NCBI RefSeq assembly: GCF_014863355.1
Contig: NZ_JACZEP010000004.1
Span: 62,001-126,000, forward strand
Source of the DNA: Aminobacter carboxidus
GTDB taxonomy: Bacteria; Pseudomonadota; Alphaproteobacteria; Rhizobiales; Rhizobiaceae
Reading direction: 5' to 3'
DNA length: 64,000 nt
In this document: positions 53,926 through 56,455 of the stretch, piece by piece
How the letters are laid out: every line of letters starts with the position of its first letter
Numbering within the stretch: position 1 is the stretch's first letter
Program-made: the position numbers and the translations under genes
Notes under the pieces: generated by a model
Seen by the model: only the letters and a program-made list of their open reading frames with translations
Database searches by the model: none
Told to the model about the DNA's origin: nothing

Positions 53926-54555
53926 TCAGGCGGTCAGCTTCGCGACAAGATCGGCATAACAATCAAAGGCCAGATCGGGGCCTTGGGCGCGCAATGCGGC
54001 AGCCGTGTTGTAGCCGAAGGTCACCGCTCCCGCGGCGATGCCCGCACCGCGCGCCGCTTCGATGTCACGAACCTCGTCTCCGATGGCGATGGTGCGTCGC
54101 TTGTCGGCCCCCAGGCGCTTGATGACGGCCTTGAACTTGGCGCTCTTGCCCCACAGCGACGCGCCACATTGGAAGTGGCTTACGTGGGCCGCAGCCGCCC
54201 CAAGCGTGCCGCGGATGGTGTGTTCGCTGTTGGAACTGACGATGGCAATAGTGATGTCGCGTGCGGCCAGGCTGGCGAGCATCGGTTCGACCCCGGGGAA
54301 AAGCGCCACCGCATCACGGCTTTCCGCGCTCAGCTTGCGCATGTGCATCGCGATTGCCGGCATCTTCCACTTGGGAATCCCGAGGCTGGCAATGATCTCG
54401 CGGGTTCCCAGCGCGCGCATTTGCTCGATCTCGTTATCGGCAACCTCGCGAAAGCCAAACTGCCGCGCGGTTTGATTGAGCACCGAGCAGAACCACGGAA
54501 AGCTGTCGGCCAGCGTGCCGTCATAGTCGAATATCGCAAGCGAGAAAGAAGACAT
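53926..54555 (-). CDS. HAD-superfamily phosphatase (phosphoglycolate-phosphatase-like)
   Basis: A 209-residue HAD hydrolase: the catalytic DxD motif in IFDYDGTLADSF (Asp10, Asp12), motif II IAIVSSNSEHT, and motif III/IV KSAKFKAVIKRLG with IAIGDEVRDIEAARGAG. A helical cap lies between. The ATG at 54555 is chosen; GTG at 54582 is possible. The substrate is unknown. It lies between the broken P-loop gene and map, on the same strand. Confidence 0.86.
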   Translation of the reverse strand: MSSFSLAIFDYDGTLADSFPWFCSVLNQTARQFGFREVADNEIEQMRALGTREIIASLGIPKWKMPAIAMHMRKLSAESRDAVALFPGVEPMLASLAARDITIAIVSSNSEHTIRGTLGAAAAHVSHFQCGASLWGKSAKFKAVIKRLGADKRRTIAIGDEVRDIEAARGAGIAAGAVTFGYNTAAALRAQGPDLAFDCYADLVAKLTA

Positions 54556-54627
54556 CAGGGCGCCACCAGTGTGCCCCGTCACTGCCTCAGTGCGGTTTCA
54601 GCGTCAATGCCGGCTGCGGCATGGCAA

Positions 54628-55398
54628 TCAGGCCAGCATGCGCGCCTCGTCGCGGCGCAAGGTCAAAACCTCGACACCGCTCGCCGTGACGGCGACCGTA
54701 TGTTCGAACTGCGCCGAGAGTTTCCGGTCGTTGGTCACGACAGTCCATCCGTCGCTTGCGGTCGAGACCTTGCGGGTGCCCTGGTTGACCATCGGCTCGA
54801 TGGTGAAAACCATGCCCTCGCGCAGCATCATGCCCGTTCCCGGCTTGCCGAAATTGAGCACCTGCGGCTCTTCGTGCATCTCGCGGCCGATGCCGTGGCC
54901 GCAATAGTCCCGCACCACCGAATAGCCGTTTTTCTTGGCATGCCGCTCGATGGCAAAGCCGATGTCGCCGAGATGCGCTCCCGGCCGGACCTGCCTGATG
55001 CCTTTCCACATCGCCTCTTGGGCGACCCGCACCAGCCGCGTCGCGGCAGGCGGGGCGCTGCCGACCAGATAGGTCTTGCTCGAATCGGCGATGTAGCCGC
55101 CCTTTTCGAGCGTGATGTCGAAATTGACGATGTCGCCGTCCCGGATGATCTCCTGCCCATCGGGCACGCCGTGGCAGACGACATGATTGATCGAGCAGTT
55201 CAGTACGTAGTTGAAGCCATATTGCCCCTTGCTGGCCGGGCGGGCGGCAAGCTCGACCGTGATGAAGCGCTCGACAAGATCGTTGACCTGCAGTGTCGAC
55301 AGTCCGGCGAGCTCCTGCCCGTCGAGCATCTCGAAGACGGATGCCAGCATCCTGCCTGCGACGCGCATCAGCGCCATTTCATCCGCTGTCTTGACCAT
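54628..55398 (-). CDS. map: Type I methionine aminopeptidase paired with a ParD-like gene
   Basis: A 256-residue MetAP. All five metal ligands are present: Asp94 (NFDIT), Asp105 (ADSSKTY), His168 (GHGIG), Glu201 (IEPM) and Glu232 (FEHT), plus His76 (CHGVPD). It removes N-terminal Met. It starts one base after the stop of a ParD-like antitoxin gene, forming a two-gene operon. Genomes usually carry a housekeeping map elsewhere, so this may be a second copy; that cannot be checked here. Confidence 0.92.
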   Translation of the reverse strand: MVKTADEMALMRVAGRMLASVFEMLDGQELAGLSTLQVNDLVERFITVELAARPASKGQYGFNYVLNCSINHVVCHGVPDGQEIIRDGDIVNFDITLEKGGYIADSSKTYLVGSAPPAATRLVRVAQEAMWKGIRQVRPGAHLGDIGFAIERHAKKNGYSVVRDYCGHGIGREMHEEPQVLNFGKPGTGMMLREGMVFTIEPMVNQGTRKVSTASDGWTVVTNDRKLSAQFEHTVAVTASGVEVLTLRRDEARMLA

Positions 55399-55399
55399 G

Positions 55400-55606
55400 T
55401 CAGGCGACCGCCAGATCCTGGACATGCACCTGCGCCGCCGCAAACTGCATCTTGACGATCTCGTTGAACGAAAAGGTCGGATTGGCTTCCGCCAGCATGC
55501 CGACCTTCATCCAGAACTCGGCCTGCGCATTGATCGACCGGCACATCACCGTGCTGGCCCGCCTGATTTCCTCATGCAGGTCCTCGTCGATCTTCACGAT
55601 ACCCAT
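55400..55606 (-). CDS. ParD-like antitoxin-family protein
   Basis: A 68-residue protein opening MGIVKIDEDLHEEIRRASTV, a ribbon-helix-helix type start, followed by SINAQAEFWMKVGMLAEANP, the signature of the ParD-like family (PF11903). No ParE- or PIN-type toxin gene is adjacent; the partner is the methionine aminopeptidase gene one base downstream. An AT-rich palindromic region sits upstream (55621-55650), as usual for autoregulated antitoxins. Confidence 0.85.
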   Translation of the reverse strand: MGIVKIDEDLHEEIRRASTVMCRSINAQAEFWMKVGMLAEANPTFSFNEIVKMQFAAAQVHVQDLAVA

Positions 55607-55620
55607 GAACGTCTCCTATT

Positions 55621-55650
55621 TACGAATATACGTATCATATATGTTTCGTA
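55621..55650. promoter_or_regulatory. AT-rich palindromic promoter of the ParD-like/map pair
   Basis: TACGAA (55621-55626) and TTCGTA (55645-55650) are inverted repeats, with a perfect 8-bp palindrome ATACGTAT at 55628-55635 between. The site is 15-44 bp upstream of the ParD-like start and much richer in AT than its surroundings. Autorepression by the RHH protein is inferred. Confidence 0.5.
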
Positions 55651-55781
55651 TACTCACAGGTCAACCGGATGCGGTAGATACCTGGCCTCCTGGAGGCTGG
55701 ATGGACCGTCGTTTGGCCGCGCATTGCCTCGATCTATCTTGACCCTATTGAACAACATTTCGCGCATGGTAATACGCCTGC

Positions 55782-56455
55782 ATGGAAACAGTTGAGCCTG
55801 AAAAGTCCAAAGCATCTGTTCGCAAGCGCGCTGAAGCGATCAAGTCGTTTCGCTGCAAGAACCTAATCGCAGTTATCGAAGACCCGACTGACATCAAGAA
55901 CATCGGAACAGTCATCCGAAACGCCAATGCACTCGGCGTGGAGAAGTCTACATCGTCGATCCCCGCAAGGCCCTTCCCGATGACTGGCAGGAAATGCGAG
56001 AGCAGAAGTCGCTTTCGAAGATATCGGTGTCTGCGGTCAAATGGACATTCGTGAAACGCTTCGACAGCACCGAGGCGTGCCTCGATCATCTGGAAAAGAA
56101 CGGCTGTGTCTCTGTCGTCACCTCACCGCATGTAAAGGGTAAGACCAACGTTTACCTGCATGAAGGCGACTACACACAGCACACGAAACTCGCGGTCTGG
56201 TTCGGCAACGAGGCGCGTGGCATCAGTCCGCTCGCGGTCGAGCGCAGCGATATGTGCGTGGCCGTCCCGATGTTCGGCATGATCGAGAGCCTCAACCTCG
56301 GCACATGCTCAGGTATCGTTCTCTACGAAGTCGCCAAGCAGCGGCGAGCGTATCAGAGCACGTATCGCCGCAGCAGGAACAAGGGGAAACGCGCCGAGCC
56401 TTTGCCCACCATCATGGCTCGCGAAGACGCTGACGCTGGCTTCCAGGCAGTCTGA
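55782..56455 (+). pseudogene. SPOUT (TrmH/SpoU) RNA methyltransferase with a one-base frameshift
   Basis: Restoring one base near 55947 gives a 224-residue SPOUT methyltransferase. Frame 1 encodes METVEPEKSKASVRKRAEAI and IKNIGTVIRNANALGVEK (motif 1). Frame 2 continues YIVDPRKALPDDWQEMREQK, VWFGNEARGIS (motif 2) and MIESLNLGTCSGIVLYE (motif 3). The sequence GAGAAGTCTAC appears to lack one G. It is either a recent pseudogene or a sequencing error; all knot motifs are otherwise intact. The family 2'-O-methylates tRNA or rRNA. Confidence 0.82.

Follow-up and report, generated by a model that had tools for sequence, protein, structure and literature searches.

Why should a gene of an antitoxin family stand one base upstream of a gene for methionine aminopeptidase (MetAP), and what might the two do together? 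The question arises from a 64,000-nt stretch of the Aminobacter carboxidus genome (contig NZ_JACZEP010000004.1, positions 62,001 to 126,000), called the window here, in which an initial annotation had recognised the pair and described its layout as that of a toxin-antitoxin operon with an effector that would process protein N-termini. The features concerned, in window coordinates, are these:

55659-55664, minus strand: candidate -35 box, TTGACC
55627-55652: operator candidate, three CRTATAYG-type palindromes 11 bp apart, of which the first and last extend partly beyond the pattern; minus-strand sequence TATACGAAACATATATGATACGTATA
55636-55641, minus strand: candidate -10 box, TATATG, inside the operator and 17 bp after the -35 box
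55613-55617, minus strand: ribosome-binding site AGGAG of the ParD-like gene
55400-55606, minus strand: ParD-like (PF11903) gene, 68 aa (82.5 bits against a cut-off of 23)
55399: single base between the ParD-like stop codon and the MetAP ATG
54628-55398, minus strand: type I MetAP gene, 256 aa from its ATG (TIGR00500, 301.7 bits against 171.35)

On the minus strand the ParD-like gene thus comes first and the MetAP gene downstream, and the ParD-like protein begins Met-Gly-Ile-Val-Lys-Ile. The first protein scores as a member of Pfam ParD_like and the second as a type I MetAP, so that the gene assignments and their one-base spacing stand as first described, as does the palindromic AT-rich promoter. 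Chance or mis-annotation of the pair is ruled out by the curated scores and by the conservation of the pair.

Conservation of the pair and its other layouts

The ParD-like/MetAP pair forms a conserved module, found in many proteobacteria and also on a number of their plasmids. A search of GTDB with the ParD-like protein, biased to close relatives, yielded 318 confirmed relatives; in the best 80 of these 318, a MetAP gene lies downstream on the same strand in 78 and the gap is exactly 1 nt in 68, the neighbour conservation that the initial annotation had asked about. The two exceptions among these 80 are a locus with a SnoaL-like ORF in place of the MetAP gene (L070) and one that stops at the contig end (L083). 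Damaged MetAP copies occur within the 78 loci, two being split over frames (L031 and L028), one shortened (L034) and one without an intact start (L048). No in-frame fusion of the two genes was seen among the loci examined by eye.

A survey of 398 Pseudomonadota genomes found PF11903 in 109 of them (117 matches in total), and in 49 of the 109 the PF11903 gene has a MetAP gene on its own strand no more than 1.5 kb away. One of the 49 (G140) was excluded, its MetAP gene being 815 bp away and a ParE-like gene lying directly downstream of the PF11903 gene. The remaining 48 have two MetAPs (47 genomes) or three (one genome), so that in every one of the 48 the MetAP is an additional copy. The 60 genomes whose PF11903 genes are all unlinked have one MetAP in 53 cases, none found in six and two in one, and 80 genomes without PF11903, of which 20 were listed as negative and 60 taken by their absence from the 109 positives, have one in 72 cases, two in seven and none found in one. 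A. carboxidus itself has one PF11903 match and exactly two TIGR00500 matches above the cut-off, including the MetAP of the pair. The second map, elsewhere in the genome, adjoins radC and has a trigger-factor-like gene near it (neighbours read from ORFs); it is the housekeeping copy, and the paired map is therefore not the only one in the genome, a case that the initial annotation had named as a refutation.

The pair is also carried on plasmids. A collection of plasmids contained 33 records with a MetAP at 60% identity or more, and a ParD-like gene adjoins it in all 33 (30 linked by listing or annotation and three by sequence reading, many of the records being near-copies). Carriers include a conjugative IncFII Klebsiella plasmid (K. 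pneumoniae), Pantoea megaplasmids, and an Acinetobacter baumannii plasmid in which the pair (L127, 4790-5768) lies between transposase genes and near blaOXA-58 and a recombinase gene. A plasmid MetAP of Legionella adelaidensis (51% identity) had no ParD-like gene by annotation or by core motif, which speaks against the link being universal among more distant MetAPs. A megablast search of 20,395 E. coli records with the pair as found on the K. pneumoniae plasmid gave no match. Viral contigs gave 43 loci, two of them of the Met-Gly branch of ParD-like proteins described below (L265 and L266), and the other 41 had no MetAP motif on the match strand. Sampling was uneven and the sequences are related, so that none of these counts is a count of independent events.

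Two other layouts were found. On three Sulfitobacter plasmids, which come from two strains, the ParD-like and MetAP genes are divergent and about 114 nt apart, next to rpsU and a gene for a class I SAM methyltransferase; on the IMG/VR contig L265 the two genes are likewise divergent and the operator lies between them. In these divergent loci (L124 from Sulfitobacter, L308, L309 and L265) the MetAP is of housekeeping type, and that of Sulfitobacter groups with the A. carboxidus housekeeping copy (SH-aLRT 99). In Ancylobacter (with a 1-nt gap) and in Aureimonas AU20, a ParD-like gene of the Met-Gly branch is followed instead by a SnoaL/DUF4440-like ORF:

L070 4001-4655: ParD-like and SnoaL-like genes
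L125 4001-4655: ParD-like and SnoaL-like genes

The SnoaL-like call is approximate, the AU20 protein having Pfam scores below the cut-off and the Ancylobacter protein no family match, and the two proteins being alike by eye. These partners argue against a strict bond of the ParD-like protein to MetAP.

The metal site of the enzyme and its Cys-to-Asn change

The statement that all metal ligands of the enzyme are present was borne out. D94, D105, H168, E201 and E232, which we take to be the ligands, are found in the window MetAP together with H76 and H175, and all seven residues are kept in 189 of 189 distinct MetAP rows compared (211 rows less 12 outside 235-330 aa and 10 exact repeats). With a TIGR00500 score above the cut-off and these ligands, the protein is a type I MetAP by sequence.

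It departs from the ordinary enzyme at one active-site position. Asn67 of the window MetAP aligns without gaps with the active-site Cys of the E. coli chain 2p99, presumably Cys70 in E. coli numbering. Asn occupies this position in 107 of 120 ParD-linked MetAPs (101 labelled as linked and six that the linkage motif had missed and that were relabelled from the genome survey of PF11903-MetAP distance). About a tenth of the linked enzymes (12 of 120) keep the ordinary Cys, and one has Leu; the 69 unlinked rows all have Cys and none has Asn. In the Asn group two nearby positions differ as well, with Gln for Tyr and Met for Phe. Housekeeping MetAPs such as E. coli Map and P. aeruginosa 4fo7 share the fold family and metal ligands of the window enzyme and are its best sequence matches in the PDB, but have Cys for Asn at the S1 position and Tyr for Gln and Phe for Met nearby, and are not ParD-linked.

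MetAPs with Asn in place of this Cys were reportedly termed type 1n by Pillalamarri and colleagues in 2019 and are said to have a specificity relaxed towards Leu, K. pneumoniae reportedly being one studied source. By its Asn at the conserved active-site Cys the window MetAP falls into this class, and a plasmid copy of the enzyme from K. pneumoniae is ParD-linked. The type 1n work reportedly classed enzymes by specificity and is not known to link them to a ParD-like gene and its operator. Because the ligands are intact and the Cys is changed to Asn, the window MetAP would be expected to be an active paralogue, probably with relaxed specificity.

In a tree of the enzymes, 37 Asn-type rows form one side of a branch with SH-aLRT 96, apart from the linked Cys group (nine rows). 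Constraining all linked rows to a single clade gave a p-AU of 0.609 and a likelihood higher than that of the free tree, which is compatible with a single pairing event. The idea that the tandem pairs recruited different MetAPs several times was set aside, as the single clade was not rejected; only the divergent Sulfitobacter partner falls among the housekeeping enzymes.

The association is seen from the side of the enzyme as well. Among 385 alphaproteobacterial genomes, nine MetAPs matched that of the window at E <= 1e-85, and a Met-Gly type ParD-like gene lies upstream of eight of them, the window's own counted. The ninth, in genome G410 (locus L243), is an intact Asn-type MetAP; the stretch around it has neither an upstream ParD-like gene nor an operator match, and PF11903 is not matched anywhere in the genome. 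G410 also has a second MetAP. The Asn-type MetAP without an antitoxin-like gene, together with the divergent layout, argues against strict addiction. In the PF11903-negative genomes with two MetAPs, an Asn-type enzyme was absent from six of the seven loci examined (five genomes, the loci not including the second copies in G107 and G253).

Rhizobiales relatives without PF11903 have another lineage of second MetAP (L231, L232, L233 and L234, from genomes G265, G307, G028 and G043), with TIGR00500 scores of 232 to 251 bits and a position in the tree far from the other rows.

The ParD-like branch, its Met-Gly start and its operator

PF11903 genes unlinked to MetAP precede an ORF of about 90 aa. 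Such ORFs were PF15781 ParE-like toxins in five of five cases tested (111 to 134 bits), and a ParE-like ORF lies downstream in 17 of 23 motif-matched unlinked loci. These pairs resemble the window pair in the family of the first gene and in the antitoxin-first order, the two genes overlapping shortly in the PF15781 pairs; they differ in that the second gene of the window pair encodes a MetAP, that its ParD-like protein belongs to a separate branch and that Met-Gly stands directly at the predicted strand without extra residues. In a tree of 72 ParD-like rows, the 17 ParE-type rows are set apart from the Met-Gly rows by a branch with SH-aLRT 100, most inner forks of this 66-column tree being unresolved. 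PF11903 genes beside MetAP should accordingly not be counted as ParE-type antitoxins in annotation. Other partners are known for the family, as PMC6504116 lists a mycobacterial PF11903 gene beside a zeta-type toxin. In a further locus, L195 (G333:C41), the protein matching PF11903 is about 115-135 aa long and has a C-terminal part that is extended and different; neither a ParE-like nor a MetAP gene was recognised downstream of it.

The family is assigned to clan CL0057 (ribbon-helix-helix, Met_repress) in a table of PMC7354421. Like the Arc/MetJ/CopG-type autorepressors of that clan, the window protein belongs to a small, dimeric-type family and is preceded by short palindromes one helical turn apart; no sequence or fold match was obtained. 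The AlphaFold2 monomer (pLDDT 79.9, pTM 0.59) has helices at 8-21, 25-41 and 47-57 and an extended N terminus before the first helix, with no strand. Foldseek with this model returned nothing at E <= 0.001, a second look gave no ribbon-helix-helix chain, and a profile search of the PDB with the ParD-like family gave no useful match.

The start of the branch proteins is fixed. In a survey of N termini anchored on a motif in helix 2, which is itself uninformative about the N terminus, the start codon lies exactly 22 residues before the core Arg and is followed by Gly in 132 of 132 distinct branch proteins (148 loci). The start codons are ATG in 121, GTG in eight and TTG in three, and the occurrence of GTG and TTG at the same site indicates that this is where translation begins. 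Gly is encoded by all four of its codons, so the constraint acts on the protein. In ParE-type relatives (23 of 39 loci matched the motif used), residue 2 is Ala in 14, Pro in four, Ser in three, Asn in one and Gly in one, and one or more extra residues precede the predicted strand. As a control, the unrelated ParD family PF03693 (28 of 30 loci used, with starts chosen by script) has Ala in nine, Asn in five, Gln in four, Thr in four, Pro in three, Ser, His and Val in one each, and Gly in none.

Met-Gly is a good MetAP substrate. Small second residues, which suit MetAP, are generally common, and most ParE-type relatives have one as well. It may be for DNA contact or folding only that Gly2 and the start position are fixed, since H11, R15, R23, S24, N26, Q28, A29 and G36 are equally invariant in 128 ParD-like proteins. 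The Met-Gly start is kept, as is the operator, where the MetAP gene is divergent or replaced by a SnoaL-like gene.

The consensus upstream of the ParD-like genes, TATAYG-N3-CRTATAYG-N3-CRTATA, amounts to CRTATAYG palindromes one helical turn apart. At least 16 of 20 positions are matched in 124 of 131 upstream regions against seven of 2620 first-order shuffles, a contrast that is not independent, since some of these sequences also served to derive the pattern. In 68 of the 124 relatives TTGAC precedes the operator by 6-16 nt, the distance being exactly 12 nt in 57 of them. In the 6.29-Mb A. carboxidus genome the degenerate operator is unique with up to three mismatches allowed, and a reversed control pattern gave no match; a single occurrence in this genome scan suggests local autoregulation and indicates no regulon. 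The operator also precedes solitary or differently partnered ParD-like genes in Ancylobacter, Aureimonas AU20 and Sulfitobacter.

A candidate circuit, its rivals and the neighbouring genes

Taken together, these observations favour an operon for an accessory MetAP under its own repressor, with removal of the repressor's initiator methionine probably tuning DNA binding, a reading whose chances we put at about even. ParD-like dimers would bind the helically phased CRTATAYG array over the -10 box and promoter and repress both genes; once repression is lifted, the spare MetAP would add to the housekeeping enzyme. The repressor's Met-Gly start, at the predicted DNA-reading strand, would be a substrate of the MetAP that it controls, and initiator-methionine removal, or its failure, may then tune DNA binding, with the operon induced when MetAP activity is low; this is the least certain step. 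If the strand register is that of Arc in a gap-free alignment, Met1, Ile3 and Lys5 lie on the base-reading side. As the first residue of the repressor would lie at its DNA-reading end and be removed by the enzyme of its own operon, incomplete removal would alter binding, whether by weakening or by strengthening it.

In its strongest form, the ParD-like repressor would be a sensor of MetAP activity, the state of Met1 deciding DNA binding. This form is possible, though less likely than not. Where methionine excision fails because the enzyme is inhibited or metal-starved or the formyl group is retained, newly made repressor would keep its (formyl-)Met and release the CRTATAYG array, and the spare MetAP of relaxed specificity would be switched on.

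It is rather unlikely that the ParD-like protein is a generic autorepressor with various accessory genes, the MetAP being an ordinary backup (for metal limitation, insensitivity to inhibitors or a phase of growth) and the signal unrelated to methionine removal from the repressor. Such a repressor would be expected to have partners like the SnoaL-like genes of Ancylobacter and Aureimonas AU20, where the operator and the Met-Gly start are kept, and an operator overlapping the promoter and an extra MetAP (48 of 48) fit it as well. It does not account for the MetAP partner in nearly all other cases (78 of the best 80 of 318; 49 PF11903 genes of the branch or near a MetAP), and a repressor of passing cargo would not predict that the divergent partner in Sulfitobacter, too, is a MetAP, though of a different lineage (SH-aLRT 99 with the housekeeping copy).

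There remains the toxin-antitoxin layout described in the initial annotation. A type II-like system, in which the ParD-like protein would bind and inhibit the MetAP, the freed relaxed MetAP would damage protein N-termini and the complex would autoregulate through the operator, we consider improbable. Its architectural half held up: an antitoxin-family gene stands directly before the effector gene with a 1-nt gap or short overlap and an operator over the promoter, this layout is conserved, PF11903 includes genes that precede PF15781 ParE-like toxins (five of five), and the tight translational coupling of the tandem pairs resembles a toxin-antitoxin system more than a simple regulator would require. 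The scattered occurrence of the pair and its presence on plasmids point the same way, as do the Asn confined to linked enzymes (107 of 120 against 0 of 69), with the relaxed specificity reported for it, and a housekeeping MetAP in all 48 MetAP-paired genomes. The other half, MetAP as toxin, found no support. An effector would not be expected intact without its antitoxin, yet one of the nine close MetAPs, that of G410, is an intact Asn-type enzyme in a genome without PF11903; 12 of 120 linked MetAPs keep Cys; Sulfitobacter and contig L265 have the genes divergent; and SnoaL-like genes can take the place of the MetAP. E. coli generally tolerates an excess of MetAP, which also counts against it. 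As a known defence system the pair can be dismissed, PADLOC giving no match for either protein.

To our knowledge, no regulator of N-terminal methionine removal has been described, and the limited collection of literature searched contained none, nor a paper naming 'ParD-like' together with 'methionine aminopeptidase'. Passages of PMC6504116, PMC13129497 and PMC7354421 make no link between PF11903 and MetAP, and those of PMC3948609 concern other matters. If the proposed circuit is true, bacteria have a dedicated means of sensing and adjusting N-terminal methionine removal, an essential step carried out by an enzyme pursued as an antibacterial target, and this would also explain why some plasmids, clinical ones included, carry a second MetAP. 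If the pair should be a toxin-antitoxin system instead, its effector activity would be new.

Two genes flank the pair. A HAD gene downstream (53926-54582) was considered as a third member; it had a tblastn match in one related Aminobacter locus (L015), not in the other (L016) and in none of the other loci shown, and was left out of the module for its presence in L015 but not L016. A SpoU/TrmH-type RNA methylase gene on the plus strand (55782-56455) had no match near the pair in L015 or L016. It is split into overlapping frames at 55782-56054 and 55994-56455, of which only the second matches PF00588 (66.3 bits), and is apparently frameshifted.
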